Positions 38,506-53,131 of a stretch of DNA of 64,000 nucleotides are shown piece after piece. The notes below the pieces were generated by a model. That model had not been told where the DNA came from and made no database searches. It saw only the letters and a program-made list of their open reading frames with translations. A program made the translations under genes and the position numbers. The DNA is from a virus, in IMG/VR virus record IMGVR_UViG_3300036715_002161, positions 1-64,000 of that record; one strand, 5' to 3'. The stretch's first letter is position 1, and each line of letters starts with the position of its first letter.

Positions 38506-38559
38506 AGGTAACCCTCCAGAGCCTAGTCTATTTCAACTTCTTGTGCATAGAGTCCGACC

Positions 38560-40605: not shown

Positions 40606-40647
40606 TTTAGTTCCTCTGCTATCGCTGGTTATCTCTACGTTAGACTC

Positions 40648-40923: not shown

Positions 40924-40960
40924 GGTATTTCCTTTGTTGCGCCACACTTCAAGGGCAGTG

Positions 40961-41023
40961 GGCTAACCCTACGTTCGAGCGGACGCTGGTAAAGCGTCAT
41001 GCCCCTCAACTACACGTTATGGC
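40961..41023 (+). other. attC-like site
   Basis: R''-type core GGCTAAC, L''-like CGTTCGAGCGGACGC, spacer, L'-like GCGTC.TGCCCCTCAAC, and terminal core GTTATGG; arms pair with an extra C on the left side, as in integron attC sites. The TAA stop of the 41017 gene is formed by the right core on the minus strand. Confidence 0.7.
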
Positions 41024-41262
41024 ACACGAACCACTACGCGCCACTTGAATATAAAAAATCCACGCATCTCTACGTGCCCGATCTTTCCTTTTACCATTTC
41101 GTTAAAGCTTTCTACGGTCATCCATCCGTCTATGTCCGTCTTGATCGCCTTGGCTGCTTGAGATACATCCAAGATAATTACTTCTGATAATCCCCATCCG
41201 CAGCGATGGAATAGACATACGTCGCCTTTCTTGTATGCCACTTGTGCTGTTTCGAGTTTCAT
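41017..41262 (-). CDS. Hypothetical protein (81 aa)
   Basis: MKLETAQVAYKKGDVCLFHR...; beta-rich, ends ...VVVRVP with its TAA inside the attC-like core GCCATAAC. Ribosome-binding site GAGGGGGAT lies in the end of the upstream gene. No family recognised. Confidence 0.6.
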   Translation of the reverse strand: MKLETAQVAYKKGDVCLFHRCGWGLSEVIILDVSQAAKAIKTDIDGWMTVESFNEMVKGKIGHVEMRGFFIFKWRVVVRVP

Positions 41263-41263
41263 T

Positions 41264-41521
41264 TCAATCCCCCTCTATGGTTGTTAAGTTAATTTGGAAA
41301 TACTCAGCCAGCTCGGACCTATTTCTCATTACACTAAAGTAGGTACTGCCAATATTACAATCTTCAGGTTTGGGATAATCGGGGAACTCACCGTCCCAGT
41401 TAACCACGGCTATCTCTGTGCGCCACTGCAAAGCCTGCCCATCAGTCTTGAATAATCGCAGTAGCGTGCAGTACTTAGTAATCCACTGTGCTACTACTAC
41501 GCTTTGCTGTTCTTCACTCAT
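41264..41521 (-). CDS. Hypothetical protein (85 aa; paralogue of 47600-47854)
   Basis: MSEEQQSVVVAQWI..., QALQWRTEIAVVNWDGEFPD, AEYFQINLTTIEGD: more than half identical by eye to the 47600 protein, including both termini. Function unknown; duplicated within the island. Confidence 0.68.
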   Translation of the reverse strand: MSEEQQSVVVAQWITKYCTLLRLFKTDGQALQWRTEIAVVNWDGEFPDYPKPEDCNIGSTYFSVMRNRSELAEYFQINLTTIEGD

Positions 41522-41522
41522 G

Positions 41523-41747
41523 TCAGCTTTCCTTTGTTACCGCCGAAAAGAACCTGTCGCCTTTACCTGTAGGCTGTACAGTCATTGGGTCAAATCCCAT
41601 CTTCTCGCCAAGTTTGGCCCAGGCTGCATTTGCGTTTTCCTGAACGCTACGCACCGTGGCACATTGGAGCGCGATCATCGGTACTGGCCTCATTGCGTCA
41701 AACAGCGCAGTAAGATCATCGGCTGTCATTTCATAGTTTGTCCGCAT
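41523..41747 (-). CDS. Hypothetical protein (74 aa)
   Basis: Helical, MRTNYEMTADDLTALFDAMR...NANAAWAKLGEKMGFD; AAAGGAAA before ATG. Typical phage small protein of unknown function. Confidence 0.6.
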   Translation of the reverse strand: MRTNYEMTADDLTALFDAMRPVPMIALQCATVRSVQENANAAWAKLGEKMGFDPMTVQPTGKGDRFFSAVTKES

Positions 41748-41759
41748 TTCGTTTCCTTT

Positions 41760-42086
41760 TCAAATTGCTCGTGTCTTCAAAACCTCGCCTGCTTCAAGTA
41801 ATGCAGCAGGATCGTATGCTATACCCACGGACCCATCAGCCCTGCGAATGACCAGTCTAGCGAAAAGGTTGGCAATTTTTCTGAGTCGCTCAATCTCGGC
41901 TGCCTCATCTCGCAAAGTGAGAAGGTCTGCAATCGCATTGGAGTACTTGTTAATGGCATTGACGGCATCATTGTGGTGTACCCCAAACATATCACCGTCG
42001 TCAAAGGCGAAGGCTATCTTTGCTAACTTCTCCGCATCTTTCAGTGCGGCTATCGCCCTGTTAATTACTTCGTTCTTTGTGTCCAT
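41760..42086 (-). CDS. Hypothetical helical protein (108 aa)
   Basis: MDTKNEVINRAIAALKDAEK...NAIADLLTLRDEAAEIERLR; coiled-coil-like. The ribosome-binding site CGGAGAAA lies next to the left core of the attC-like site 42097-42150. No family recognised. Confidence 0.6.
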   Translation of the reverse strand: MDTKNEVINRAIAALKDAEKLAKIAFAFDDGDMFGVHHNDAVNAINKYSNAIADLLTLRDEAAEIERLRKIANLFARLVIRRADGSVGIAYDPAALLEAGEVLKTRAI

Positions 42087-42096
42087 ATTTTCTCCG

Positions 42097-42150
42097 ATTT
42101 AACCTGGCAGTCTAGCTGACCCTTACAAGTTGCTCACTTTTGCGTTAGGC
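42097..42150 (+). other. attC-like site
   Basis: 54-bp site with outer cores ATTTAAC and GTTAGGC and a TTGCTCACTTTTGC right arm typical of attC. Left arm GTCTAGC pairs with GCTCAC allowing one extra base. The stop of the 42145 gene is formed by the right core (GCCTAAC). Confidence 0.6.
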
Positions 42151-42405
42151 CAACTCAAATACATGGAATATTAGGTAGCCTCCGTGAATCCCATAGGTTC
42201 CCACGTACTCGCCCGGACCGTCATGTATTAGATTGCCTGTGCCGTAGGTGGCAAAGTTGCGGGGCACGATAGGTTCCATCTCATCCACTAAAGCCCACAG
42301 TTGTGGTATGCCGTCTTGTGCTTGCACCTTAAGTAGCTTCGCACCCTTGTGGATGTGTAGGGTTTGCAAGTCAGTAACTGTCAGCGTCCATTTCAAAATT
42401 TTCAT
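42145..42405 (-). CDS. Phage protein of DUF7352-like type
   Basis: An 86-aa protein from ATG 42405 (TTGGAGAG upstream): KWTLTVTDLQTLHIHKGAKL, QDGIPQLWALVD and GTGNLI are the pattern of a common small phage beta-sandwich family. Its TAA lies in the attC-like core. Function unknown. Confidence 0.68.
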   Translation of the reverse strand: MKILKWTLTVTDLQTLHIHKGAKLLKVQAQDGIPQLWALVDEMEPIVPRNFATYGTGNLIHDGPGEYVGTYGIHGGYLIFHVFELA

Positions 42406-42465
42406 GTTCTCTCCAAGGTTATGCGGGCCATTACTAATATAAATAGAGAGTATCTCTCTACTATT

Positions 42466-42474
42466 GTTATACCA
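42466..42474 (-). promoter_or_regulatory. Extended -10 promoter TGGTATAAC
   Basis: Same sequence context as 13198 (TTTTGGTATAACAATAGTAGAGA), upstream of the 42145 gene. Confidence 0.65.
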
Positions 42475-42530
42475 AAATAAGTGTACTTTGACTAAAAAAA
42501 ATAAAGGACCTGGTAAGGTCACCCTTATTT

Positions 42531-42558
42531 AAAAAACAGCGCTCTGAATTGAGCGCTG
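42531..42558 (-). terminator. Intrinsic terminator, covaried copy
   Basis: CAGCGCTC / GAGCGCTG stem plus minus-strand TTTTTT; differs from 13248-13275 by a G-C to C-G swap in both arms. Confidence 0.85.
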
Positions 42559-42564
42559 CTGTTG

Positions 42565-42750
42565 TTACATAGCTCCGACCGTGTGGTCATCAAACACCTC
42601 TGATAGACTGGTCTTCAGATACTGTTCTACCTTGTAACACCCATAGGCCGTGATAGAAAGCCCCAGTATACTCAGATAGGTGTCATAGTTGGACTTAAGG
42701 TGATCCAAGACCTTAGATGTAAAACTTGCTTCTTTGGCAGGTGCATTCAT
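42565..42750 (-). CDS. Membrane-anchored protein (paralogue of 13282-13581)
   Basis: A 61-aa short form: MNAPAKEASFTSKVLDHLKS, one membrane helix (YDTYLSILGLSITAYGCY) and the same tail DDHTVGAM. It lacks the N-terminal charged helix of the 13282 protein. Promoter, leader and terminator are near-identical to that locus. Confidence 0.7.
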   Translation of the reverse strand: MNAPAKEASFTSKVLDHLKSNYDTYLSILGLSITAYGCYKVEQYLKTSLSEVFDDHTVGAM

Positions 42751-42804
42751 TTGTAATACTCCTTATATTATATTTGGACAAACGGTATGTTTTATCCTAC
42801 TATT

Positions 42805-42813
42805 GTTATACCA
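42805..42813 (-). promoter_or_regulatory. Extended -10 promoter TGGTATAAC
   Basis: Upstream of 42565-42750. A hairpin ACCAAG / CTTGGT lies further upstream at 42860-42880 (minus-strand terminator-like). Confidence 0.65.
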
Positions 42814-42892
42814 AAATAAGTGTACTTTGACTAAAAAAATAAAGGGCCTAGAGTAGTGACCAAGGTTTTACTTGGTAAGGTCTACCACTATT

Positions 42893-42946
42893 TAAAAACC
42901 CTGACCCGCAAAAGCTTCATCCGGTTAACTCTATGTTATGTGTCAC
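42893..42946 (+). other. Truncated attC-like site
   Basis: Right half only: CCGCAAAAGC, ATCCGGTTAACTCTATG and core GTTATGT, then CACTTGGT. It aligns with the complete site at 51360-51422; the left half is replaced by the phage promoter block. The stop of the 42936 gene (ACATAAC) is in the core. Confidence 0.55.
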
Positions 42947-43202
42947 TTGGTACGTTGGTTATTTCAGCATTATAGCGAGTATTCCATCGCTCTATTGCCT
43001 GCTCTTTGTCACGCCCGATCCGTTCGATCATCCGGCTTGGGCCAGGGGCTTCAGCGCACCAATGCCGCACCGAAACGCTGACCGGGTCGCTATACCTCAT
43101 GCCAACCCAGACTCTCCCGTTGTCTTTGAATTCGGTTATACCGCCGGGACAAAACGGGCACGGTAGCAACCGCTTCAAATCTTCATCCTTAGCTTCTATC
43201 AT
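42936..43202 (-). CDS. Lar-type zinc-finger protein
   Basis: An 88-aa protein: LLPCPFCPGG near the N-terminus, HWC in the middle, and DKEQAIERWNTR: the pattern of restriction-alleviation (Lar)-type zinc-finger proteins of phages. Lar eases host type I restriction in the prototype; here only the fold is supported. The C-terminus ...VPSDT ends in the attC-like core. AGGAGG precedes ATG. Confidence 0.65.
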   Translation of the reverse strand: MIEAKDEDLKRLLPCPFCPGGITEFKDNGRVWVGMRYSDPVSVSVRHWCAEAPGPSRMIERIGRDKEQAIERWNTRYNAEITNVPSDT

Positions 43203-43357
43203 TTCAGCCTCCTATCATCTGTCTGCACCTCTTGCAGTCTCTTGCCACAGTGCATTTTATTATCCGATGGTGTGCCCTCGCTTATGTCAAAAAGGTTTCC
43301 GCATCCGGTAACCCAAAAGCCATTATTGTCTTCAACCCAGTTACACTGTTCACTCAT
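43199..43357 (-). CDS. Small Cys-containing phage protein
   Basis: 52 aa from ATG 43357, overlapping the upstream stop (ATGA): CNWVEDNNGFWVTGCGNLFD. Homologous to the adjacent upstream protein (43354-43539) but with fewer cysteines. Function unknown. Confidence 0.6.
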   Translation of the reverse strand: MSEQCNWVEDNNGFWVTGCGNLFDISEGTPSDNKMHCGKRLQEVQTDDRRLK

Positions 43358-43539
43358 TTCAATTGTTCCTTTGTTAGAAGGCTCTCGCCACAGTATGGGC
43401 ATACACGTGAGTGCCTCTCTGACCGGTTTCCCCTGACGAACCCAAAGCAGTTTCCGCAGGTGCTAACCCAAAAACCTTCTCCGTCGTTGTCTTCGACCCA
43501 TGTATATGTTTTGTCTTCATGCAGTAGTGTATCCATCAT
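43354..43539 (-). CDS. Small zinc-ribbon phage protein
   Basis: 61 aa: WVEDNDGEGFWVSTCGNCFG...SRVCPYCGESLL, two CxxC knuckles. Tandem paralogue of the 43199 gene. AAAAGGAGA precedes ATG. Confidence 0.65.
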   Translation of the reverse strand: MMDTLLHEDKTYTWVEDNDGEGFWVSTCGNCFGFVRGNRSERHSRVCPYCGESLLTKEQLK

Positions 43540-43550
43540 TTCTCCTTTTC

Positions 43551-43583
43551 AAAGTGCCTCACTTCAAAGGTAGGCGGTTAACC
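43551..43583 (+). repeat. Recurrent 33-bp leader element (copy 1 of at least 4)
   Basis: AAAGTGCCTCACTTCAAAGG followed by TAGGCGGTTAACC. Related copies at 48993-49025, 49341-49373 and 49618-49650, and a shorter form at 40940-40967. Each lies between a ribosome-binding site/start codon and an attC-core-like (T/C)TAAC. Confidence 0.7.
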
Positions 43584-43817
43584 TTAGCCACCTATGCGCC
43601 GGTACTCCATGCATACAGTATCTGTGACCGTCTGCATGGTTGCTATCTTCCCTATATACATTGGCTGTATATGTGTGCGATACACAGGATTCACGCATTC
43701 CCAGTCGCCTTTCTTAAGTTCAAATGTTGGCTGATTGATTTCTTTCCATAAGCCAACACTAACAACAGCAAAGATGCCTGTTAAGATAACTACTATAATC
43801 CATTCCATACGATTCAT
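43584..43817 (-). CDS. Small membrane protein
   Basis: 77 aa from ATG 43817 (overlaps the upstream stop): one membrane helix (MEWIIVVILTGIFAVVSVGL) then KKGDWECVNP...TDTVCMEYRR with a cysteine pair. Probably inner-membrane with a small outer domain; function unknown. Confidence 0.65.
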   Translation of the reverse strand: MNRMEWIIVVILTGIFAVVSVGLWKEINQPTFELKKGDWECVNPVYRTHIQPMYIGKIATMQTVTDTVCMEYRRIGG

Positions 43818-44395
43818 ATTTTCTCCTCTGTTTGCCATGGCGCTCGGCCTTCACACATTTTGATGAACATCGATTTCTGAGCATCTTCCTCAGAAGCTCC
43901 AGTAGCAGCCCTAGCAGCAAACGCAGCAGCCCCCGCAGCAGCCTTAGCAGCCCTAGCAGCAAACGCAGCAGCAAACGCAGCAGTCCCTTCAGTAGTCCAC
44001 GCAGCAGCATTCGCAGCAGTCCACGCAGCAGCCAATTCAGAATCCGTAGCCTCTCCATTGGCATAGCGCTCAGCTACGTCTGGCGCGGCTATGCTGCGTG
44101 GATCAGTCATCAAGTGTTGCACCCTCCTAGCACACCAAACAGCAAATAGGCGGGAGTCCCTTTCTGTACCTGGAATACATAGGAGAGCCCACAGGGCATC
44201 ACCCAGGCAATTACTAGAGACTATGGAAGCCAACGGTAGAGGCCCCCTATGTTCGTAGCTGATGTAGTATTCTCGGGTGGAATCCAGGCTGGTGAACGGG
44301 AGTCCCTGAAGGCTTCTAACTACCTTGTTATATCCATTAAAGCAGGCTCTTTTTTTACTTAGGGAGGAAAGGGTTATTGTTAGCGGGTAGTTCAT
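43814..44395 (-). CDS. Ala-rich phage protein (paralogue of 40003-40605)
   Basis: 193 aa; NKVVRSLQGLPFT and RLFAVWCARRVQHLM as in the 40003 copy, followed by an almost pure Ala repeat region (AAFAARAAKAAAGAAAFA). The Ala tract is encoded by GCAGCA-type repeats and clearly expands or contracts. Function unknown. Confidence 0.7.
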   Translation of the reverse strand: MNYPLTITLSSLSKKRACFNGYNKVVRSLQGLPFTSLDSTREYYISYEHRGPLPLASIVSSNCLGDALWALLCIPGTERDSRLFAVWCARRVQHLMTDPRSIAAPDVAERYANGEATDSELAAAWTAANAAAWTTEGTAAFAAAFAARAAKAAAGAAAFAARAATGASEEDAQKSMFIKMCEGRAPWQTEEKI

Positions 44396-44461
44396 AGTGG
44401 TGTTCCTTGAATGTTATCTGGCAGCATCTTGGCGCGTCTTCTGTACCGGGCAATTAACTTA

Positions 44462-44959
44462 TTACTTGGGCGTAGTGTAGAGCGGGAGACAAAAACTCTC
44501 ATTCCAACCATCAGTCGTCTTTGCAAAAGAGTGGTAATGCCAATCTCCTGCATCGTCCACTAGGAATCGAGAATAGCCATAAGGCTTACTCTGTACTTTG
44601 TAGGCGGCAATGCGCTCTTCAAGCACCGCCGCGTAGCCGTCCATGCAACGGGCTTGGTTGCGCAACCGTGACTGTTCGGCTTCCGACAGATCGGCAAACT
44701 GAATCGTATGAAAGAAGGTAGATAACTTTATCAGCTTCTTGTCGAGTTCGGCCTTCTCAGTTAAAACGCGTTTATGGACGTAGGTTTTGAATGCGTCTTC
44801 TGGCCGATGATTGATCTCTTCCATTTGTGCTATTAGTGCTTCTCTGAGTACAATGATGGCTGGACGGCATTTCTTTTCCCATATTCTGTAGTAACTGCCG
44901 CCCAGTATAGATATTTCTTCTAGCGCCTCAAGCGCCAGTTCCATTGCTTTCTTGCTCAT
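44462..44959 (-). CDS. MSKKAME-type phage protein (copy 1)
   Basis: 165 aa from ATG 44959 (GGAGATT upstream). N-terminal unit MSKKAMELALEALEEISI is common in phages; C-terminal unit SKPYGYSRFLVDDAGDWHYH resembles the end of the 45883 protein. One of three paralogues in a row. Function unknown. Confidence 0.68.
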   Translation of the reverse strand: MSKKAMELALEALEEISILGGSYYRIWEKKCRPAIIVLREALIAQMEEINHRPEDAFKTYVHKRVLTEKAELDKKLIKLSTFFHTIQFADLSEAEQSRLRNQARCMDGYAAVLEERIAAYKVQSKPYGYSRFLVDDAGDWHYHSFAKTTDGWNESFCLPLYTTPK

Positions 44960-44960
44960 A

Positions 44961-45518
44961 TCAATCTCCATAAGGTAGTCCATCTGTAAGCGCATTGCCA
45001 GCGTTTCCTTGCTGCTCCGGGTTGTTCGGGTTAGGCGACACACCATTAGTATTGAGCACATTTATAGGTATCCCAATGCAGGCATTAACGCAGGCCGCAA
45101 TCCGCTTAGCGTCGGACTCAGAAATTGCGTAGCCGATTTTCTCTCCCGGTGGGCAGACATACCAGCCATCTATATCCTCACCATATCCCCATATCGTGCC
45201 GCCTAACCCTACATTCGAGAGCGACTCCCCAAAAGCGTAGCTCGCCATCGCGGCGCGCAACATTTCAACTTCGGCATTCGAGTCGGACTCACCCTGCTGC
45301 TTGATTGCTTCAACAGTCGAAGCGTGACAACCCATGCGTTCGCAGCCACCTACAAACCCTTCTAATGAGCAGCCATCTTCAAACTCTGGGCCATTATCTT
45401 GTTGAGTGATCGCTTCCTTAAGTGCGGCGATGGCAGCATCACTTTTAGGAATCGCCCGCGTCTGCTCACGGTGATATTCCAGCGCCTCAAGTGCCTGTTC
45501 CATTGCTTTCTTGCTCAT
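44961..45518 (-). CDS. MSKKAME-type chimeric phage protein (copy 2)
   Basis: 185 aa from ATG 45518. N-terminal MSKKAMEQALEALEYHREQT, then a segment ESLSNVGLGG that is a translated attC half-site, then a second domain (DIDGWYVCPPGEKIGYAISE...AACVNACIG). The tail NAGNALTDGLPYGD also ends the upstream protein. Looks like a gene fused across a former attC-like site. Confidence 0.62.
   Translation of the reverse strand: MSKKAMEQALEALEYHREQTRAIPKSDAAIAALKEAITQQDNGPEFEDGCSLEGFVGGCERMGCHASTVEAIKQQGESDSNAEVEMLRAAMASYAFGESLSNVGLGGTIWGYGEDIDGWYVCPPGEKIGYAISESDAKRIAACVNACIGIPINVLNTNGVSPNPNNPEQQGNAGNALTDGLPYGD
45193..45225 (+). other. attC half-site inside a coding region
   Basis: GCCTAACCCTACATTCGAGAGCGAC matches the left half of the complete site at 49876-49964 but lacks a right half; it is translated in the minus-strand gene. 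Confidence 0.5.
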
Positions 45519-45519
45519 T

Positions 45520-45780
45520 TCAATCTCCATAGGGTAGTCCATCCGTAAGTGCGTTGCCAGCGTTAGCCACCTCATTCTCATAATCTGGCGGGTCCACGAA
45601 ATAAAAATTTCTCGGCAAAGGTGCAAGGCCATCAAGTTTTGCAGCAAGCATCCAGAGAAGTTTTTCCCGAACTACAACGCCATCCACTTCAGTAACAAAG
45701 TGGTCGCCCTCTTGCCACACAAATACAGGAAACCTTCCACAGTACGTTAGGTGCAGCGTTATTGCTTCGTTTTTGTTCAT
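45520..45780 (-). CDS. Hypothetical protein (86 aa)
   Basis: MNKNEAITLHLTYCGRFPVF..., EKLLWMLAAKLDGLAPLPRN; last 14 residues NAGNALTDGLPYGD are shared, at DNA level, with the next gene's end, reflecting a duplicated 40-bp segment containing an attC-like core (GGCTAAC). Confidence 0.6.
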   Translation of the reverse strand: MNKNEAITLHLTYCGRFPVFVWQEGDHFVTEVDGVVVREKLLWMLAAKLDGLAPLPRNFYFVDPPDYENEVANAGNALTDGLPYGD

Positions 45781-45809
45781 GTTTTACTCCGTTGTTAGCC
45801 GTGGTCGAA

Positions 45810-45881
45810 CTATTCAATCGCCGCCATAGCGAATTTCTTACGAATCGCATCAATACAATCACATGGGGTTGTATCTGGCAT
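45810..45881 (-). CDS. Tiny ORF (23 aa), doubtful
   Basis: ATG 45881 just after the stop of 45883-46182; MPDTTPCDCIDAIRKKFAMA. GGAT upstream. Only weak support. Confidence 0.3.
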   Translation of the reverse strand: MPDTTPCDCIDAIRKKFAMAAIE

Positions 45882-45882
45882 C

Positions 45883-46182
45883 TTATCCAACTCTATCACC
45901 TAAGTAGAGTGGGCGGCAAAGAGAGACATTCCAACCCTCAGTTGTCATTGCAATAGAATGTAAACGCCGATAACCTAGATCGTCTAACATGTATCTAGCA
46001 TAGCCGAACGGCTCATCCAGCTGCTTGATCGCTTCTTTGAGTACATCTGTGGCTGTGCATCCATAGAATAGAGCTTCTTGCAGGACCGACATTCCAGCAT
46101 TTGATCCTGAGTGCTTATGTGCTATAGTTGCGTCCCATTTTTCTAAGGCATCAAGCGCCAGTTCCATTGCTTTCTTGCTCAT
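45883..46182 (-). CDS. MSKKAME-type phage protein (copy 3)
   Basis: 99 aa: MSKKAMELALDALEKWDATI..., then PFGYARYMLDDLGYRRLHSI and LCRPLYLGD as in copy 1. GGGAGATT before ATG. Function unknown. Confidence 0.68.
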   Translation of the reverse strand: MSKKAMELALDALEKWDATIAHKHSGSNAGMSVLQEALFYGCTATDVLKEAIKQLDEPFGYARYMLDDLGYRRLHSIAMTTEGWNVSLCRPLYLGDRVG

Positions 46183-46382
46183 TTCAATCTCCCTGGGGTA
46201 GTATCAATGGTTAGCGCCAACTCTTGCAAGTCTGCCATTACTTCTTTATTCATGGCTATACACCAGGCAGCGAATCTGTAGCGAGTCCAGCGCATAGGTG
46301 CATCGTCGTCAATAATCTGGCACAAAGCCCATGCAATGCGGTCTTTTGTACTTGCGGTTTCTTTGTCGTATGGTATGTACAT
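46179..46382 (-). CDS. Hypothetical protein (67 aa)
   Basis: MYIPYDKETASTKDRIAWAL...YRFAAWCIAMNKEVMAD; overlaps the next gene by 4 nt. No family recognised. Confidence 0.58.
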   Translation of the reverse strand: MYIPYDKETASTKDRIAWALCQIIDDDAPMRWTRYRFAAWCIAMNKEVMADLQELALTIDTTPGRLK

Positions 46383-46407
46383 ATCAATCCCCTTGGTTAT
46401 GGGTTAC

Positions 46408-47076
46408 TTACAGGGTTTCTTTAAAGTGCTTCATTGTAACTGGGCAGACGGCAGTCGCCAGTTCCAGTAAAGCCTCAGCGTACACCCGGATTTCGTACTG
46501 GGCATGTGCATGAAGTCGAAGACGCAAGAAGTGCATGAGGTTGTGTAGGTCGACCGAGGCAAACATATGGCTGTAGGTACCCGTAGTGAGTACTGACCTG
46601 GCTAGCTCTCTTGGACAGCCTTCCCTGATGAGGCTCTGGTATACCTCAAAGCATGAGTTGTTGGCAGCATCGATAGTCAGCTGGAATTTGCTGGCTAATG
46701 GATGTACTTCCTCAGTCCTCATTTGTTTATTGTCCTTGCTTTGCGTGGTTATTTGAGCCAGCTCCGGTACGTAGTACTCTTCTGGTAGCTCTGCGTACCT
46801 AGCACTAACTTCATTGTAGCTCCAGGTGCGGTGGCGGTGCCACTGTCTCAATACGAAGATGGGGGCCTTCACCTCAAAGGTGAACTGCACCGACTCAAAG
46901 GGGCTTGTGTGTTTGTTATTCAGCAGGTACTTGATGAGCTTCTCATCCTTACCCGAATCCTCTCCTGTGCGCCACTCCGCTGCATAGCTTACGCGAGCTG
47001 CCCGCACTATGGATAGATCACTGCCCATACTATCTACTAGCCTGACTAACCCACGGTCCAATACTTTGAATTCCAT
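46408..47076 (-). CDS. thyX: Flavin-dependent thymidylate synthase ThyX
   Basis: 222 aa from ATG 47076 (CAGGAGATT upstream; the GTG 24 bp earlier lacks one). The diagnostic ThyX motif RHRTWSYNEVSARYAEL is present, with flanking SYAAEWRTG and KHTSPFESVQFTFEV. Makes dTMP with FAD and NADPH, leaving tetrahydrofolate, so independent of DHFR. Redundant with the ThyA gene at 11153. Codon use is richer in G+C third positions than the phage core, consistent with separate acquisition. Confidence 0.92.
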   Translation of the reverse strand: MEFKVLDRGLVRLVDSMGSDLSIVRAARVSYAAEWRTGEDSGKDEKLIKYLLNNKHTSPFESVQFTFEVKAPIFVLRQWHRHRTWSYNEVSARYAELPEEYYVPELAQITTQSKDNKQMRTEEVHPLASKFQLTIDAANNSCFEVYQSLIREGCPRELARSVLTTGTYSHMFASVDLHNLMHFLRLRLHAHAQYEIRVYAEALLELATAVCPVTMKHFKETL

Positions 47077-47096
47077 TTTAATCTCCTGTAGTTCGT

Positions 47097-47333
47097 TCAC
47101 GTTGGGGCTGTCTCTGATTGGGGAATATCAAGGAATCTCACATGCTCTAAAGGTACATTGCTTATAGTTCCATCTGGCCACTCAACAATTGCAGTTGTGT
47201 AGTTACCCGCACAAGTCGCGAACTCTTCGTAGTTCACGCCGAATTGATGAAACATCGCTTCGCCCTTTTCCTCCAGTCTCCATACACCGCTGGGGAACTG
47301 CTTTTTAAGCTCACTTACCATTACTTTACGCAT
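47097..47333 (-). CDS. Hypothetical protein (78 aa)
   Basis: MRKVMVSELKKQFPSGVWRL...YTTAIVEWPDGTISNVPLEH; beta-rich, no family recognised. GAAAGGAAATG upstream of ATG. Confidence 0.6.
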   Translation of the reverse strand: MRKVMVSELKKQFPSGVWRLEEKGEAMFHQFGVNYEEFATCAGNYTTAIVEWPDGTISNVPLEHVRFLDIPQSETAPT

Positions 47334-47370
47334 TTCATTTCCTTTCTTTCATCTTGGTGCATATCACGGG

Positions 47371-47598
47371 TTAGGGGTAGGCGGCTAACCTTACTTTGGG
47401 GCGTAGCGGGCACCATTTTGGTATCGCCTGTTTATTATCGTTCCATTTGCGCAGAGCTATACGCTTGTTGTGATGTGCTTTGCATGTCCACTCATCTATT
47501 GACTCGAATACATCCGCTTTGTGGAAGCGTTTGCTCTCATGATTAGGGCACCACCCGCAGTCCGCCACTGTCCTTATAAACTGTACTGTTTCAGTCAT
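47371..47598 (-). CDS. Small zinc-finger phage protein
   Basis: 75 aa with CGWCPNHE, WTCKAHHNKR and KWCPLRP, a likely zinc site. The C-terminal VRLAAYP is translated from attC-flank sequence and the TAA lies in a core-like CCCCTAAC. GGAGGGGG before ATG. Confidence 0.6.
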   Translation of the reverse strand: MTETVQFIRTVADCGWCPNHESKRFHKADVFESIDEWTCKAHHNKRIALRKWNDNKQAIPKWCPLRPKVRLAAYP

Positions 47599-47599
47599 T

Positions 47600-47854
47600 T
47601 CAATCCCCCTCCATGGTTGTGAAGAAAGTTTGGAAATACTCGGCCCGCTCAGTCATATTGCTCATTAGATAAAAGTATATGCAGCCAATATCACAATATT
47701 CAGGTTCAGGATCATCAGGGAACTCATCGGCCCAGTTAGCCACGGCTATCTCTGTGCGCCACTGAAAAGCCTGCTCCTTAGTCTTGAACACCCGCACCTC
47801 TGTGCTATCTACTGTTTTGTATAATGCTACTACGCTTTGCTGTTCTTCACTCAT
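47600..47854 (-). CDS. Hypothetical protein (84 aa; paralogue of 41264-41521)
   Basis: MSEEQQSVVALYKTVDSTEV..., QAFQWRTEIAVANWADEFPD, AEYFQTFFTTMEGD. Second copy of this family in the island; function unknown. Confidence 0.68.
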   Translation of the reverse strand: MSEEQQSVVALYKTVDSTEVRVFKTKEQAFQWRTEIAVANWADEFPDDPEPEYCDIGCIYFYLMSNMTERAEYFQTFFTTMEGD

Positions 47855-47881
47855 GTCAACTTACCTTTGAACGCTGTGATT

Positions 47882-48073
47882 CTATTCATGCTCGGCCCTG
47901 GCCTCAAGTACCCTGTAGTCCTTACTGTACTGATCGTTTAATTCCCCCCACAGTGGGTCATCTGCTGTGAGTTTGGTAGGCTTATGCGCCCAAATCTCAT
48001 TTGTTATCGCTGCACCCACTATACCTCCCATGACCATTGAGACCGAAGCCAAAAGCAAATCGTGGTTAATCAT
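47882..48073 (-). CDS. Small membrane protein (63 aa)
   Basis: N-terminal membrane helix (LLASVSMVMGGIVGAAIT) then an acidic soluble tail. ACGGAGT upstream. Overlaps the 48066 gene by 8 nt. Function unknown. Confidence 0.6.
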   Translation of the reverse strand: MINHDLLLASVSMVMGGIVGAAITNEIWAHKPTKLTADDPLWGELNDQYSKDYRVLEARAEHE

Positions 48074-48293
48074 TTTCTACTCCGTAACTTGGTGTAAAAC
48101 AAGTTGAACAAACGCAGCACACGCAACATTCAATATCTGGCCGATCATTATCCTCAAAGCTTTTAATGTCTTGCTCAGTATATCCTGCATCTTTCCGGTT
48201 TTTTGCACTCCAGTCACCACTCCCTCCACCCCAATCAGAATCAAGGCGAAAGTGTCCAATTCTTGTGCTTTTACAGTTAGGGCAAATCTGCAT
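48066..48293 (-). CDS. Zinc-finger phage protein (paralogue of the 51623-52048 N-terminus)
   Basis: 75 aa: MQICPNCKSTRIG, then KDAGYTEQDIKSFEDNDRPD and CCVCCVCSTCFTPS. Cys-rich, probably zinc-binding. The 51623 protein has a nearly identical first 65 residues but then continues into a second domain. AGGAGAGAG before ATG. Confidence 0.66.
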   Translation of the reverse strand: MQICPNCKSTRIGHFRLDSDWGGGSGDWSAKNRKDAGYTEQDIKSFEDNDRPDIECCVCCVCSTCFTPSYGVEND

Positions 48294-48507
48294 AACTCTC
48301 TCCTATTAAGCTAGATGGACTGAAGTATTTAATAAGCGAAAACATGGCATCTTTGTCTTGCGACCATTTGCACTTCACAATAACCTGGGTTGTCGTGTTC
48401 TCGCCTTCCTTGGGTCGCAGCACCTTTAACGCTTTTGCCCAGCCATACCTTGGATGGTCTTTGTGCCTGTAGCTTTTGTCAATCACTATGTCTTTTGCTC
48501 TCATCAT
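48277..48507 (-). CDS. Hypothetical protein (76 aa)
   Basis: From ATG 48507 (CGGAGAAA upstream): MMRAKDIVIDKSYRHKDHPR...; a small beta-type domain (TQVIVKCKWSQDKDAMFSLI) resembling phage KTSC/SH3-like small proteins, not assigned. Overlaps the 48066 gene by 17 nt. Confidence 0.6.
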   Translation of the reverse strand: MMRAKDIVIDKSYRHKDHPRYGWAKALKVLRPKEGENTTTQVIVKCKWSQDKDAMFSLIKYFSPSSLIGESYADLP

Positions 48508-48532
48508 TTTCTCCGTCCTGTAGCTCAATACT

Positions 48533-48976
48533 TCAAACATCGCTTTCCTCCACTAAGCCCTGAGGTGTCGGCAGCTTAGTGGTGTCCACTCCGAAGCAAC
48601 TTTGCATGAAGCGTGTAGTCGCTGCGTTGGCCTCGTCGGGCAGTATGCCTTCGTACAGCATATTCATCGCAATCTCGCAGTGCCATCCCCACGCATATTT
48701 GGGGTCATCTCGCATTTCACTCTTCAAGATTTCGAGCGCCGCCTCAATGCGACTTGGTGTCTTGGTGTCGCCATCTAGGCTGCACCGCGCCGGCCATTGA
48801 GAGAACGGTTCGCAGGTGCTGTCAACCCCGCGCAGTTCCATAAAAGCTTTGATTTCTTCAGCCATCGGGGCAGAGTTGTTGGCCGAAGCAGTCAAAGGCT
48901 TGTTACGCATTGTAAGATAGTCGCCGAAGTCTAACAGCACTCCCGCAACAATGTGATCCAGTCGTTCAAGGCTCAT
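48533..48976 (-). CDS. Phage protein of WHC-IAMN type
   Basis: 147 aa: the C-terminal part DDPKYAWGWHCEIAMNML...DEANAATTRFMQSCFGVDTT is a common phage hypothetical family. N-terminal 60 residues are variable. AAAGGAAAT before ATG. Function unknown. Confidence 0.65.
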   Translation of the reverse strand: MSLERLDHIVAGVLLDFGDYLTMRNKPLTASANNSAPMAEEIKAFMELRGVDSTCEPFSQWPARCSLDGDTKTPSRIEAALEILKSEMRDDPKYAWGWHCEIAMNMLYEGILPDEANAATTRFMQSCFGVDTTKLPTPQGLVEESDV

Positions 48977-49024
48977 AGTTTAATTTCCTTTTAAAGTTCC
49001 GCACTTTGAAGGTAGGCGGCTAAC

Positions 49025-49324
49025 CTACCAAATAGCAACCAACTTTCGTCCGTTTGCTTTGTCGCCATCTATCAGTTCAATCCTAACGCCAGGAACAAAA
49101 GTAATTGCTTCGGCTACATTATCACCTTGCTGCGTAGTTACTTGTACAACACACCCAACACCATCAATCTGCATTGCCTTTGTTGACTTCATCCACCCTT
49201 GCGCCGTGGAGGATGCTTTGCAAATAAGCTGGAATGTATCACCATTGCCAAACACTTTCAAGTCGTTAATATTCGCAGTTGCTCCTTTCACCTCTGTGAT
49301 GTCCATCAATTTAGGTTCTGTCAT
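49025..49324 (-). CDS. Small beta-rich phage protein
   Basis: 99 aa from ATG 49324 (AGAGGAAAG upstream): LKVFGNGDTFQLICKASSTA..., GWMKSTKAMQIDGVGCVVQV. Typical phage hypothetical family. The longer ORF reads through the leader element at 49341-49373 and is not preferred. Confidence 0.66.
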   Translation of the reverse strand: MTEPKLMDITEVKGATANINDLKVFGNGDTFQLICKASSTAQGWMKSTKAMQIDGVGCVVQVTTQQGDNVAEAITFVPGVRIELIDGDKANGRKLVAIW

Positions 49325-49417
49325 CTTACTTTCCTCTTTCAAAATGCCGCACTTCAAAGGTAGGCGGTTAACCTCTTGCTCCGTATCAAATACGTTCAAG
49401 CGGATTATGTAGCACTG

Positions 49418-49600
49418 TCATTTCGGCTTAGTGGCGTCTCCGATGTTCTTCATCACACCTTTGAGTGCAGTAGCGGTATGAGGCTCATCCTTATCGGTGA
49501 GTGCTCCTCCCATTGTTATCACGTCAGCGACAATCGCAACAGGTGTTTCGACAACAACACCAATAACTGCCTTGGTCAAATTCTCAAGTAATCCAAACAT
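49418..49600 (-). CDS. MFGL-type small membrane-associated protein (copy 1)
   Basis: 60 aa: MFGLLENLTKAVIGVVVETP, VADVITMGGALTDKDEPHTA; paralogue of 50241-50435. One amphipathic or membrane helix. Common small phage family of unknown function. Confidence 0.65.
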   Translation of the reverse strand: MFGLLENLTKAVIGVVVETPVAIVADVITMGGALTDKDEPHTATALKGVMKNIGDATKPK

Positions 49601-49642
49601 AGTCTATTCATCCTTTTAAAGTGCCTCACTTCAAGGGTAGGA

Positions 49643-49687
49643 GGCTAAACCATTTTCTCGGTATCTGGTGCATATCACGGGTTAGGC
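49643..49687 (+). other. Degenerate attC-like site
   Basis: GGCTAAAC left core and GTTAGGC right core 30 bp apart; internal arms weak (GGTGCATATCACGG). The same right-hand motif (GCATATCACGGGTTAGG) occurs at 47360-47377 and, diverged, at 52545-52567. Confidence 0.4.
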
Positions 49688-49935
49688 CACTCTGCCACGG
49701 TGGTAACGTCCTTCGATGCTCCGCACCGTATGCACAAATAGCCTGTGGTAGCCCACTTCAACCCGTCGCTGTCTGGTTGCAGGTCTAACATTCCACATGT
49801 GACCGACCATCGGTGCAAACCAAGCCAACAAAGCATCGGCGTGTACCCAACTTTTGCCGCCAACGATTGCTTCTGGCCTAACCCTACATTCGAGAGGGAC
49901 GCTCCTTCAGCAGTTTCATTATTGTTTGAGTTCAT
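49675..49935 (-). CDS. Zinc-ribbon-like protein starting inside an attC-like site
   Basis: 86 aa. Start ATG 49935 lies in the loop of attC-like site 49876-49964, so residues 11-20 (GASLSNVGLG) are translated attC. The rest has CWLGLHRWSVTCGML and YLCIRCGASKD, a likely zinc ribbon. Overlaps the end of the upstream gene by 17 nt within the loop. Confidence 0.62.
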   Translation of the reverse strand: MNSNNNETAEGASLSNVGLGQKQSLAAKVGYTPMLCWLGLHRWSVTCGMLDLQPDSDGLKWATTGYLCIRCGASKDVTTVAEWPNP

Positions 49936-49964
49936 CAGTCGCGCCCCTCAATTCAGCGTTAGCC
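49876..49964 (+). other. attC-like site containing a gene junction
   Basis: Left core GCCTAAC, arm ATTCGAGAGGGACGC, 38-nt loop, right arm GCGCCCCTCAAT, right core GTTAGCC. The loop carries, on the minus strand, the stop of the 49919 gene and the start of the 49675 gene. Confidence 0.72.
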
Positions 49965-50203
49965 ACCTCAAACTGAGATCCGTGGTAAACCTCTTTATTC
50001 GTGTAGTCTGAGATTTGCCACATTCCAGACCCTTCGTTAAACCACCACGCTAGATCTGGATAATTATCGTCCGGCTTGCTTAACTGGAATAGCGTCCCAC
50101 CTACTTTCCTTAGGTGCGTAGCTGCGGCACGTCTAGTGGCTAACACTTTGGTCAAGCGGGACTGGCCGTCAGCGGCTTCGGTTGTTTCTTGTGTTTCACT
50201 CAT
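49919..50203 (-). CDS. Hypothetical protein with both ends in attC-like sites
   Basis: 94 aa. Starts ATG 50203 in the loop of site 50138-50251 (AGGAGATAAGC before it) so that residues 12-21 (ADGQSRLTKV) are translated attC. It ends in the loop of site 49876-49964 (tail NAELRGATDELK). The middle (GTLFQLSKPDDNYPDLAWWF) is beta-type. No family recognised. Confidence 0.62.
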   Translation of the reverse strand: MSETQETTEAADGQSRLTKVLATRRAAATHLRKVGGTLFQLSKPDDNYPDLAWWFNEGSGMWQISDYTNKEVYHGSQFEVANAELRGATDELKQ

Positions 50204-50251
50204 TGCTTATCTCCTGTTGTTGCGGCCAGCCCCTTACCTTCTACGTTATGT
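50138..50251 (+). other. attC-like site carrying ribosome-binding site and start codon
   Basis: 114 bp: left core GGCTAAC, arm GGTCAAGCGGGACTGGCC, loop, right arm GCGGCCAGCCCCTTACC, right core GTTATGT. Arms resemble Vibrio VCR repeats. AGGAGAT plus ATG of the 49919 gene sit in the loop. Confidence 0.75.
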
Positions 50252-50435
50252 CACTATCTATGGCCTTGTTAACGCTCTTTCCAGCCGCATTAAGTAAGTC
50301 GCCAGTGCGTCCGAATGGGTGGTCATCCTCATGGTCAGCACTTGCGAATAATGTCAATATATCAACTACGAGTGCGACTGGTGTTAATGCCACGGCAACT
50401 GCTGCCTTTGTCAAATTTCTAAGTATTCCAAACAT
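50241..50435 (-). CDS. MFGL-type small membrane-associated protein (copy 2)
   Basis: 64 aa: MFGILRNLTKAAVAVALTPV, LTLFASADHEDDHPFGRTGD; paralogue of 49418-49600. Its stop lies just inside the 50138-50251 site. Function unknown. Confidence 0.65.
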   Translation of the reverse strand: MFGILRNLTKAAVAVALTPVALVVDILTLFASADHEDDHPFGRTGDLLNAAGKSVNKAIDSDIT

Positions 50436-50455
50436 TTTTCTCTTTCAAAGTTATA

Positions 50456-50474
50456 CCTAACCCGCGTTAGGTGC
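50456..50474 (+). other. Collapsed attC-like site (cores only)
   Basis: ACCTAACCCGCGTTAGGT: two attC cores almost back to back with no stem. Probably a deletion remnant; the stop of the HD gene is in it. Confidence 0.5.
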
Positions 50475-50921
50475 TTCCAAATGCTGAAGCTCCAGATAAA
50501 AACGGTGATACTCGGCAATCCGCTCGACGTCCTTCGGGCGCACGCCCTTTAGTCGGCGAATGTCGCTGTTGTGGCGCAGGTCTGCCATCTTCACCATCAC
50601 TGCGTCAGGATTTGCTTTTACTCGTGCCTTGTAGTCGTCGTATGCCTCGCCATCAACCTTGGTGAGCGCCACGATGCCGGCAATTACGCGCTCGGAAAAA
50701 CCGTTGTAGCGCAGCGTTCCGACGCCATCCTCTACACGCTTAAATGTGTCTTCCACAAGGTCGTGCCCAAGGGCAATACACATCAGTTCCTCGTCGTCGG
50801 TCTTCAAGTAATGCATCACCTTCAGCGGGTGCAGGATGTACGGGTTTCCACCCTTGTCAAACTGGCCGTCATGTCGGTTTGTCGCCAGCACAAGCATTCT
50901 GGAAAGCTGCTCGCCTTTCAT
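50457..50921 (-). CDS. HD-domain hydrolase, SpoT/MESH1-like
   Basis: 154 aa with NRHDGQFDKGGNPYILHPLK, CIALGHDLVEDT and VMVKMADLRHNSD, the signature of small (p)ppGpp hydrolases of the HD superfamily. It could hydrolyse host alarmones or related nucleotides; substrate not shown. Lies between a complete attC-like site (50954-51005) and a collapsed one, so it is bounded like a cassette. AGAAAGGTGG before ATG. Confidence 0.8.
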   Translation of the reverse strand: MKGEQLSRMLVLATNRHDGQFDKGGNPYILHPLKVMHYLKTDDEELMCIALGHDLVEDTFKRVEDGVGTLRYNGFSERVIAGIVALTKVDGEAYDDYKARVKANPDAVMVKMADLRHNSDIRRLKGVRPKDVERIAEYHRFYLELQHLEAPNAG

Positions 50922-50953
50922 TTGTCGCCACCTTTCTCTGTAGTTGCCGCCGC

Positions 50954-51005
50954 ACCTAACAAGTCGTTGCAGGCGGCGGCCAGCCCTTTACCCCCTACGT
51001 TAGCG
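50954..51005 (+). other. attC-like site
   Basis: 52 bp: cores ACCTAAC and GTTAGCG, arms GTTGCAGGCGG / CCAGCCCTTTACCCCC. The TAA of the 51000 gene lies in the right core. Confidence 0.65.
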
Positions 51006-51338
51006 TCCATCATCTTCACGCATGATGTCGCCGTTGAGTTCGATCCGTTTACGGTCAAGCTGGCGGACTGTTTCGATCACATCGCTTGCCCAAAAAACCT
51101 CGGCCTGGGTGTACTTAGTGCCATATTCTCTGTTTATAATCTGAGCCTTGTACTCGGCAGCAAACCAAGACCGCCCAGCAAAGGTATATGCCACGGCAGC
51201 CAACCCGGCGGTAATCGCCAAAAGGAATCCGAGCACCCCAGCCATAGTGCCTATGCCGTCATAGGTTTCTCTGCTGTACCACATCAGTGCTACTGCAATA
51301 ACGCTAGCTGCAATAATTGCTACAAGTATTAAAATCAT
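51000..51338 (-). CDS. Two-helix membrane protein
   Basis: 112 aa from ATG 51338 (AAGGAGATAAAG upstream): helices MILILVAIIAASVIAVALMW and GVLGFLLAITAGLAAVAYTF, then a soluble charged tail. Stop in the attC-like core. Function unknown. Confidence 0.66.
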   Translation of the reverse strand: MILILVAIIAASVIAVALMWYSRETYDGIGTMAGVLGFLLAITAGLAAVAYTFAGRSWFAAEYKAQIINREYGTKYTQAEVFWASDVIETVRQLDRKRIELNGDIMREDDGR

Positions 51339-51359
51339 CTTTATCTCCTTCAAAGTTAT

Positions 51360-51422
51360 GCCTAACCCTACGTTAAACCCGGACTCCGCAAAAGCGCGTA
51401 TCCGATTAACTCTACGTTATGC
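51360..51422 (+). other. attC-like site
   Basis: 63 bp: GCCTAAC, arm CGTTAAACCCGGACTCCGC, AAAA loop, arm GCGCGTATCCGATTAACTC, core GTTATGC. Best-preserved compact site. The truncated copy is at 42893-42946. Confidence 0.75.
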
Positions 51423-51626
51423 GTCACTTGGTGTATAATCTGCGTTAGGCGCCTTCCAGTTTTCATAATTAGCTCTTATGCGGTTGCATCGGTGACAATC
51501 GCACATAGCATCGTATGACTCATAGTTGCTAGTTGCTTTCAGGTAGGATATCCACTCGTGAACGGCAGCTAACCCGGCGTTCGAGCGCACGGGCAACGGC
51601 GCGGCTTCTTTTTCAGCTTCGTTCAT
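51417..51626 (-). CDS. Hypothetical protein spanning two attC-like sites
   Basis: 69 aa. Starts ATG 51626 in the loop of site 51567-51671, so residues 9-19 (PLPVRSNAGLA) are translated attC; ends TAA in the core of site 51360-51422 (...YTPSDA). Middle has YDAMCDCHRCNRIRANYENW, a likely zinc site. Function unknown. Confidence 0.62.
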   Translation of the reverse strand: MNEAEKEAAPLPVRSNAGLAAVHEWISYLKATSNYESYDAMCDCHRCNRIRANYENWKAPNADYTPSDA

Positions 51627-51671
51627 GGTTTCTCCTCGCGCCGTTCCCCGGCGCTCAACTTTGCGTTAGGC
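51567..51671 (+). other. attC-like site carrying ribosome-binding site and start codon
   Basis: 105 bp: AGCTAAC, arm GCGTTCGAGCGCACGGGC, loop, arm GCCGTTCCCCGGCGCTCAAC, core GTTAGGC. The minus-strand loop has AGGAGAAACC and an ATGA overlap joining genes 51623 and 51417. Confidence 0.75.
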
Positions 51672-52048
51672 ATCACCTCCCACCAAGTCTGTGGAGCGTA
51701 TCTTTCAAGCGGGGAATCGAAGTCCCCCAAGTACAATTTGCCATCGTCGCCCTGCAAAACAGTGTGGTATTGGTCACGGTCATGTGAATTAAACAATGTG
51801 TCCCCTGCCTTGATTTCAGTTCCGTTCTTGTCTTGCATTGCGTCACTTGGTGTAAAACAAGTTGAACATACGCAGCACACGCAACATTCAATATCTGGCC
51901 GCTCGTTATCCTCAAAGCTTTTAACGTCTTGCTCGGTATACCCTGCGTCTTTCCCGTTTTCTGCACCCCAATAACCGCTCCCTCCATAATTATGATTGAT
52001 GCTAAGGCGTCCAATTCTTGTGCTTTTACAGTTAGGGCAAATTTGCAT
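51623..52048 (-). CDS. Zinc-finger domain fused to a YopX-like domain
   Basis: 141 aa. Residues 1-66 nearly duplicate the 48066 protein (MQICPNCKSTRIG, CCVCCVCSTCFTPSDA). Residues 67-125 start with Met (MQDKNGTEIKAGDTLFN...DGKLYLGDFD), the look of YopX-type phage proteins. The tail NAKLSAGERREEKP is translated attC. The junction lies at the codons that, in other cassettes, run into a core stop. Confidence 0.62.
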   Translation of the reverse strand: MQICPNCKSTRIGRLSINHNYGGSGYWGAENGKDAGYTEQDVKSFEDNERPDIECCVCCVCSTCFTPSDAMQDKNGTEIKAGDTLFNSHDRDQYHTVLQGDDGKLYLGDFDSPLERYAPQTWWEVMPNAKLSAGERREEKP

Positions 52049-52071
52049 AACTCTCTCCTATTTAACACCGT

Positions 52072-52099
52072 GCCTAACAAATCATTCCAGGCGTTATAC
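52072..52099 (+). other. Short attC-like remnant
   Basis: GCCTAACAAATCATTCCAGG, then core GTTATAC; stems lost. TAA of the 52094 gene is in the core. Confidence 0.45.
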
Positions 52100-52471
52100 C
52101 TTGCCCAAAATATGAGACAGTGCCCAGTATTCTGGGTTGAAAAACGCCGCCACAATCCCCTGCGCTGATCCAATCACTACCACCTGAGTGGTAATAAAAT
52201 AAACAGCTGTTGCAATCCATGCCAAAACTGCGCCTTCGTGTTCCCATTCAGCTTCTGGGTATTTATTATATTCAGTCTTAGCTGGTTTTGTGGTTTTATC
52301 TTTAACAAACCGCATCAAGACAATTGCCAATATCACCATCACGATGTCCGTAACTAAATCAATGCCACCACTTATAGGCGCTTGGTGCAGCAAAACATCC
52401 CACAAATGCTGTGCTGTTGTTCCAAGCTTCTCGGCCAGTTTCTCAATCAGCGCTGTTGTTTTATCGTCCAT
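52094..52471 (-). CDS. Membrane protein, holin-like topology
   Basis: 125 aa: N-terminal helix (TALIEKLAEKLGTTAQHLWD), membrane helix (LVTDIVMVILAIVLMRFV), charged loop, second hydrophobic region (LAWIATAVYFITTQVVVIGS). Similar small proteins occur in many phages near lysis genes; a holin role is only a possibility. CTGGAGAT before ATG. Confidence 0.6.
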   Translation of the reverse strand: MDDKTTALIEKLAEKLGTTAQHLWDVLLHQAPISGGIDLVTDIVMVILAIVLMRFVKDKTTKPAKTEYNKYPEAEWEHEGAVLAWIATAVYFITTQVVVIGSAQGIVAAFFNPEYWALSHILGKV

Positions 52472-52497
52472 CTTTATCTCCAGTTAAAAGGTATACA

Positions 52498-52567
52498 AAT
52501 CATTCTAGGTGACGGGCGAAAATCCGCCATCCTCTGAGTTAATGCTTGTTGCGTATCACGGATTAGC
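52498..52567 (+). other. Degenerate attC-like site
   Basis: ACAAATCATTCTAGG, internal hairpin GGGCGAAAATCCGCC, TGAGTTAATGCTTG and right core ATTAGCC; left core lost. Confidence 0.4.
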
Positions 52568-52579
52568 CTTTACAATTTT

Positions 52580-52786
52580 CTAGATTTCCCGCGCCGCATT
52601 AGCCCATGCTTCATCCTCAGTTCTGCCAAGTCCTAATAGTCTACGGGAGAATCTTTCTGGCCAATACCTCTCGTTAAGCCATTTTTTTTGGTCGGGGCTT
52701 ATGTACCATACACTCCATTCACCAGTGCTTTCATGCTCTATGCTGGCCTGAGGGTAGAGAATTAATACCTTGTCTTTACTATTCAC
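52580..52786 (-). CDS. Hypothetical protein (68 aa)
   Basis: GTG start at 52786 overlapping the upstream TGA (GTGA). Product: ASIEHESTGEWSVWYISPDQ...GLGRTEDEAWANAAREI, typical of small phage proteins of unknown role. Confidence 0.6.
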   Translation of the reverse strand: MNSKDKVLILYPQASIEHESTGEWSVWYISPDQKKWLNERYWPERFSRRLLGLGRTEDEAWANAAREI

Positions 52787-53109: not shown

Positions 53110-53122
53110 TGCATTCTCCTTA

Positions 53123-53131
53123 CTTATACCA
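53123..53131 (-). promoter_or_regulatory. Extended -10 promoter TGGTATAAG
   Basis: Fires into the island from the right. The transcript start would be only about 10 nt before the GTG at 53109. The following bases to 53166 repeat those at 36987-37026. Confidence 0.6.

Follow-up and report, generated by a model that had tools for sequence, protein, structure and literature searches.

A tailed-phage attC array without an integrase, whose sites may double as in-frame translation starts

Integron cassettes are viewed as self-contained promoterless genes, and the hairpin of the attC recombination site is viewed as an obstacle to translation. In this study, we analysed virus record IMGVR_UViG_3300036715_002161 (138,036 bp), whose first 64 kb, referred to here as the window, carry an array of attC sites; the other 74 kb were also analysed. 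Clusters of attC sites without an integrase (CALINs) were found in phages by Qi et al. (2023), who reported 17 of them (PMC9892861). Five of the six phage attC sites assayed there recombined with IntI1, and TJE1 was among the phages with working sites. ORF-11, an open reading frame (ORF) in the attI1 site of class 1 integrons, gives a Shine-Dalgarno (SD) sequence and an ATG that aid the translation of a start-poor cassette, and short ORFs in attC relieve the hairpin barrier by termination-reinitiation in bacterial integrons (PMC8876359). An earlier reading of the window made from its letters alone (the sequence-only reading) had proposed an integrase-less cassette array and was aware of no phage in which one had been described. 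The latter point does not hold: phage CALINs are already described, so the array as such is not new. The addition is a set of start codons inside attC loops, which that reading did not mention and which we think are the more interesting feature.

Like the CALINs of virulent and temperate phages in PMC9892861, the array lies in a tailed phage, has several attC sites in one orientation, small accessory ORFs and methyltransferase cassettes, and lacks an integrase. Unlike them, it contains more degraded and half sites, and three of its loops hold start codons. The terms 'start codon', 'translation' and 'ribosome' are absent from the text of PMC9892861, and no description of start-bearing attC sites was found among open-licence papers. 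ORF-11 usually terminates at the core, with TAG as its stop, the cassette's own start being used by coupling, and it occurs in attI once per integron, whereas the phage starts lie in attC, are repeated along the array and continue into the cassette, forming its N-terminus. Short attC ORFs and fused class 1 cassettes likewise involve translation through or out of attC and ORF fusions between cassettes (PMC8876359, PMC4670013). However, the known fusions arise via partial or total attC loss, while in the phage format attC is intact and part of the coding sequence. The best explanation of these sequence data, which we consider likely, is a tailed-phage attC array without an integrase in which attC doubles as recombination site and in-frame translation-start joint.

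A paired motif from the strongest window site was searched against 11.3 million bacterial and archaeal contigs. This yielded 98 stretches with canonical attC sites, mainly from Betaproteobacteria, Gallionellales and Methylococcales, and several of the 8-kb bacterial loci around the matches encode an IntI-like recombinase. From the sites so collected, 37 were used to build a covariance model (R1) of bacterial chromosomal attC. Being seeded by the window motif, R1 is an independent test of position, strand and 5' half, and not wholly of the 3' half of the sites at 40961 and 51567; its E-values are rough because calibration was short. On the 138-kb genome R1 gave six matches, all on the minus strand (five with E from 1e-11 to 3e-5, the sixth at 0.034), and no further match on either strand. 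The sequence-only reading had placed at least seven attC sites, and this observation was confirmed: six of its seven coordinates were recovered by R1, and the seventh, 50954, stood out only by half-site scores above background.

40961..41022, minus strand: attC with a short loop (R'' CCATAAC ... R' GTTAGCC); R1 53.0 bits, E 1e-11.
42097..42150, minus strand: degenerate attC; R1 18.3 bits, E 0.034 (E 0.004 in an unfiltered 17-kb scan).
49876..49964, minus strand: attC with a long loop holding SD and ATG, leader MNSNNNETAEGASLSNVG, core in frame GGG-TTA-G; R1 49.4 bits, E 9e-11, and ORF analysis.
50138..50251, minus strand: attC with a long loop holding AGGAG and ATG, leader MSETQETTEAADGQSRLTKV; R1 29.3 bits, E 3e-5.
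50954..51005, minus strand: degraded attC-like site (R' GTTAGGT); R1 9.3 bits, E 1.3, not significant; halves above background (5' 8.9 bits, 3' 11.5 bits).
51360..51422, minus strand: attC with a short loop, followed by a gene with its own SD and ATG; R1 49.4 bits, E 9e-11.
51567..51671, minus strand: attC with a long loop holding GAGGAG and ATG, leader MNEAEKEAAPLPVRSNAG, the upstream stop overlapping the ATG (ATGA); R1 46.6 bits, E 6e-10; paired stem changes among related sites; DNA fold z -3.3.

All five strong sites have the core GTTAGNN, and the R1 alignments contain R'' (RYYYAAC) and R' (GTTRRRY), the L''/L' arms and spacers of about 5 nt. The conserved secondary structure and the extrahelical base are present according to the model, and the sites run from R'' to R' on the minus strand, which also codes for the array genes. 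The consensus TAACGTAAAGTTGAGGGGC...CCGCTCGAACGCCGGGTTAG, the spacers and the extrahelical base are shared with chromosomal integron attC of Gallionellales, Nitrosomonadales, Methylococcales, Burkholderiales and relatives, which differ in that their loops are mostly short and almost never hold a start codon from which the next cassette is read. The integron anatomy proposed for these sites is thus borne out by matches to a bacterial attC model well above background, and we judge them, on sequence grounds, to be true integron attC of the kind that freshwater Beta- and Gammaproteobacteria carry in their chromosomal integrons. As a benchmark, R1 found two sites in phage TJE1 (E 0.001-0.002; not necessarily the two published). 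It missed the sites of Polaribacter phage P12002L, and the model is therefore narrow. Strict regular-expression and folding scans were superseded by the covariance model, as deviations of genuine R''/R' pairs from the consensus left them with one or two sites only. No Rfam family matched the window.

We examined whether the sites could be attC look-alikes, that is, shared phage early-gene junctions spread by homologous or illegitimate recombination. Exchange without attC does occur here: the ThyX gene (46388-47089) is 99% identical in G004, a different phage, and the similarity breaks off shortly beyond the ORF at points lacking an attC, so ordinary recombination is also at work, and ThyX appears to be a recent exchange by another route. 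In addition, the following block common to phage G003, with no homology to that phage flanking 40647-41021 on either side, takes in R'' and L'' of its upstream site.

40648..40947, minus strand: cassette gene common to phage G003, with its preceding attC; 89% identity over 40647-41021.

The window sites nevertheless match a bacterial-integron model in both halves, both spacers and the extrahelical base, at best with E 1e-11, which makes the look-alike explanation very improbable.

The carrier encodes a large terminase (TerL), portal, primase, ribonucleotide reductase, nicotinamide phosphoribosyltransferase and phage RNA polymerase subunits. Its ends have a 178-bp repeat in common with one mismatch, and therefore the 138-kb genome is probably complete. 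By TerL, portal, primase, ribonucleotide reductase, RNA polymerase subunits and end repeat, the array is assigned to a genuine tailed phage genome. Four significant sites lie in 49876-51671, in line with the definition of a CALIN (at least two attC within about 4 kb and no intI nearby). A complete integron, with intI and attI, was not found: neither the integron integrase (TIGR02249) nor a tyrosine recombinase (PF00589) gave a match across the 138-kb genome. The proposed absence of an integrase thus stands for the window and for the remaining genome.

Three of the four intact sites in 49.9-51.7 kb (49876, 50138 and 51567) have an enlarged loop with SD and ATG. The ORFs begun inside them cross L' and R' and continue into a cassette without a start of its own, reading the core as GGG-TTA-G or GTG-TTA-G at all three. 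At 51567, an upstream ORF also enters the 5' half of the same attC, and its TGA overlaps the ATG.

49675..49935, minus strand: ORF begun within attC 49876-49964; ORF analysis.
49919..50203, minus strand: ORF begun within attC 50138-50251, with a C-terminal tail ...NAELRGATDELKQ from the 5' half of attC 49876-49964; ORF analysis.
51417..51626, minus strand: ORF begun within attC 51567-51671 (headless cassette), with no other SD and start within 75 nt of the core.
51623..52048, minus strand: ORF with the tail ...PNAKLSAGERREEKP and stop from the 5' half of attC 51567-51671, overlapping the next ATG; the same tail type occurs in phages G036 and G039.

A start-bearing call at 40961 (leader MTLYQRPLERRV) was a false positive, as the next gene starts on its own in another frame.

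To compare phage and bacterial sites, attC sites found by R1 in phage contigs were set beside attC sites from bacterial loci, giving 149 distinct phage and 150 bacterial sites. Starts were carried by 29/149 phage sites (28 without the false positive at 40961), a fraction that is not a census because most phage sites derive from one attC type, versus 0/150 bacterial sites. Because bacterial loops are mostly short (130 of the 150 sites are 60-69 nt), we compared only long sites (at least 75 nt) and found 27/46 start-bearing phage sites versus 1/39 bacterial (p=8e-9). Dinucleotide shuffling of the phage loops gave a chance level of 3.5/46. The frame GGG-TTA-G was used in 23/29 start-bearing sites, two frames being open. 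No other SD and start was found within 75 nt after the core for 23/29 genes behind such sites; for ordinary attC of the same type, SD and start were present within this distance at 101/118 phage sites versus 17/147 bacterial sites. The start-bearing sites showed no short self-terminating ORFs or coupling of the ORF-11 kind: their ORFs run on over the core to become the next gene.

These results bear on the explanation that the array is an ordinary phage CALIN, a captured and decaying piece of a host chromosomal integron whose loop starts are incidental or are the known hairpin-relieving short ORFs. Phage CALINs are on record (PMC9892861), hairpin-relieving attC ORFs have been described in bacterial integrons (PMC8876359), and several window sites are degraded or halved. 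But translation of the known short ORFs terminates and is reinitiated at the next gene's own start, whereas here the ORF becomes the next N-terminus, with 23/29 genes lacking another SD and start nearby. The frequency among long sites also exceeds both the bacterial and the chance level, and decay would not predict a frame preference or paired stem changes. We consider this explanation unlikely.

The paired changes were seen in five 105-nt sites, drawn from four further contigs as well as the window phage, in which the hairpin is retained (for example AACGGCG/CGCCGTT versus AACAGCG/CGCTGTT; a GGGG or GGGC / GCCC arm versus AGCC / GGCT). Across these sites SD, ATG, length and frame are constant while the leader residues vary freely. 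The idea that leader peptides are conserved proteins was rejected, since the differences are mainly non-synonymous; the pattern agrees with a leader whose role is initiation and not a protein function.

One DNA methyltransferase family was also found as a headless body in three settings: two unrelated leaders, MKVEQLQTENSAAGGLSDLTTG and VTTETANEHDVGQSRSTDG, precede it in contigs L022 and L034 respectively, and in L007 it lies behind a third, attC-like joint. This family occurs in 234 isolated-phage records, the best of which align from just past the leader. In the three isolated-phage genes that we read, an ATG of their own stands immediately ahead of the region of homology (MKTILDPCSG, MSVRVLDPCC, MNAQILDPCC), so the cassette form has lost its start. 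In the window, the cassette body 45027-45225 is fused in frame to an upstream protein via an attC 3' half, and is 92% identical in G004 and G005, where it sits on an unlike upstream protein.

45201..45221, minus strand: attC 3' half-site (L'-R') within an ORF, joining the upstream protein in frame to the cassette body; 3' half 28.0 bits; same body with another upstream ORF in G004/G005.

Judged by hallmark genes, most of the attC-bearing contigs examined are phages. Portal, terminase, tape measure, tail sheath or head-tail genes of differing families were found in G003, G004, G006, G012, G020, G037, G039 and G042, and a tail protein in G013. G007 had only a weak ejection-protein match, and G038 showed no phage hallmark in the one protein searched.

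The start-bearing format could instead be native to integrons of an unsampled bacterial lineage, from which phages merely pick cassettes up. The sole bacterial start-bearing site (L155) lies in a Nitrosomonas metagenome-assembled genome beside chromosomal genes such as glutamate dehydrogenase, and the carrier phages have no assigned hosts. Against this, the long-loop pattern occurs in 16 viral stretches versus 0/49 genomes with the same attC type and 0/399 genomes in the order of G055, and the carrier phages are unrelated to one another, differing in portal and terminase family. We regard this origin as quite unlikely. A second long-loop pattern (the 50138 type) was found in just two viral stretches and one bacterial match showing no ATG, too few for use.

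Several observations weigh against attC acting as a recombination site and translation-start joint in these phages. The canonical hairpin was the best DNA fold for only 3/6 window sites (49876, 50138 and 51567). Compared with shuffled sequences, 51567 reached z -3.3 while the other window sites ranged from -1.1 to +0.6, the short sites folding no better than shuffles. The mostly non-synonymous leader differences mean that no coding selection on leaders is shown and that only SD, ATG and frame persist. Start-bearing attC are not exclusive to phages, given the case of L155, and most phage sites compared are of one type. Several window sites are degraded, and the array may be partly dead. The G003 block starts from R'' instead of the R' crossover, and a single attC x attC event therefore explains it poorly. 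Finally, no cassette gain or loss was seen between close relatives.

The last two points also bear on the proposal of the sequence-only reading that genes had been gathered or shuffled as cassettes. It is supported in part, as two blocks common to unrelated phages end at attC boundaries. The comparison of related phages for changes at the GTT cores showed none: the only close relatives, G001 and G002, are 100% identical to the window phage and so are uninformative on turnover. G001 and G002, the same phage in other samples, both end at window positions 46424-46489 with a 66-bp overlap, which could reflect either a variable joint or a break in assembly. A distant blastn search of the phage collection matched nothing beyond ThyX, one gene with an HD domain and a few small ones, and no DNA resembling the window was found in the plasmid collection.

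An integrase above the family cut-off was found in 2/37 attC-bearing viral contigs. One of them, the phage contig G037 (L194 2500-13000), has a DNA methyltransferase cassette and a full-length IntI that scores 465 bits against TIGR02249, in the order TerL, attC array including a start-bearing site, IntI, portal. This is a complete-looking integron inside a phage packaging and head module. The window phage would rely on its host or a co-infecting phage for an integrase.

Taken together, these data suggest how the joint could work. In many phage attC the enlarged, variable terminal loop carries SD, ATG and a short polar leader, and the ORF begins in attC, passes the crossover core in the preferred frame GGG-TTA-G and enters a cassette without its own start; translation would start in this loop. 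At some sites the upstream gene also ends in attC with its stop overlapping the ATG, and ribosomes completing that gene would open the hairpin (ATGA overlap). An integrase from the host or from IntI-encoding phages could then move a headless cassette behind any such site, leading to immediate translation. With the start codon held by attC, start-less genes could be swapped in frame, and selection for compact polycistronic expression may have given rise to the design. A broader proposal is that phages evolved a cassette format of their own: loops with ribosome binding site, start and leader, headless cassettes in a preferred frame, upstream genes ending in attC, and an in-frame start or fusion from each integrase move, the integrase coming from phages like G037 with IntI between terminase and portal. 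We regard this proposal as an even call.

To define the remnants in the array, position matrices for the attC 5' and 3' halves were trained on bacterial sites. Within 40.6-53.2 kb, the minus strand had 13 five-prime and 9 three-prime half-sites of at least 10 bits, versus 0.1 expected of each; the rest of the genome, outside the array, had two of each.

40600..53140, minus strand: whole accessory array with full, degraded and half attC; R1 and half-site matrices.
40626..40645, minus strand: attC 5' half-site beyond the stop of ORF 40648-40947; 13.9 bits.
42922..42941, minus strand: attC 5' half-site (R''-L''); 12.3 bits.
50455..50472, minus strand: collapsed R''/R' pair without a stem, sequence CCTAACGCGGGTTAGG; R1 11.5 bits, E 0.31.
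52072..52092, minus strand: attC 3' half-site (GAATGATTTGTTAGGC); 14.9 bits.

Six further positions had been listed as degraded or halved sites, and all but 52498 were assigned. Those at 42893 (5' half, 12.3), 45193 (3' half, 28.0) and 52072 (3' half, 14.9) were recovered as half-sites, 50456 is the collapsed core pair, and 49643 belongs to a repeated cassette-start motif. The cassette-start motif, GTTARCC-GCCTACC(T/C)TTGAAGTG-GGCACTTTGAAA, stands ahead of gene starts in five copies (43547-43584, 48989-49026, 49337-49374, 49614-49651 and 40932-40969), and a viral scan found it in no other contig.

The array also contains duplicated gene families with 70-90% identical stretches (40003-40605/43814-44395, 41264-41521/47600-47854, 48066-48293/51623-52048, and 37029-39945), which look as if copied in place. 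A promoter-like repeat, TTTTGGTATAACAATAGTAG, lies at 42458-42507 and 42797-42846 and also near 37.0 and 53.15 kb, and is perhaps a phage-specific early promoter. Immediately upstream of the array is a reverse transcriptase gene (53149-54189, minus strand; RVT_1 with a YADD motif, PHROG phrog_2825 'polymerase'), with about 51% identical relatives in two further viral contigs (L058 and L059). At 61947-63837 (minus strand), a ThiF-family (E1-like) gene adjoins a JAB-domain gene, resembling ubiquitin-like conjugation pairs. Contig L003 has two ORFs of 932 aa each on its minus strand (2756-5551 and 8197-10992), the second matching DNA primase families, a possible duplication.

If attC does serve as a start joint, it would act as a universal connector: a cassette in the right frame would be expressed wherever it is inserted, and swaps would yield new N-termini or fusions. 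Gene finders would misplace starts in such arrays. This would explain how phages maintain dense, fast-changing accessory arrays, and would directly link the phage and bacterial integron gene pools.

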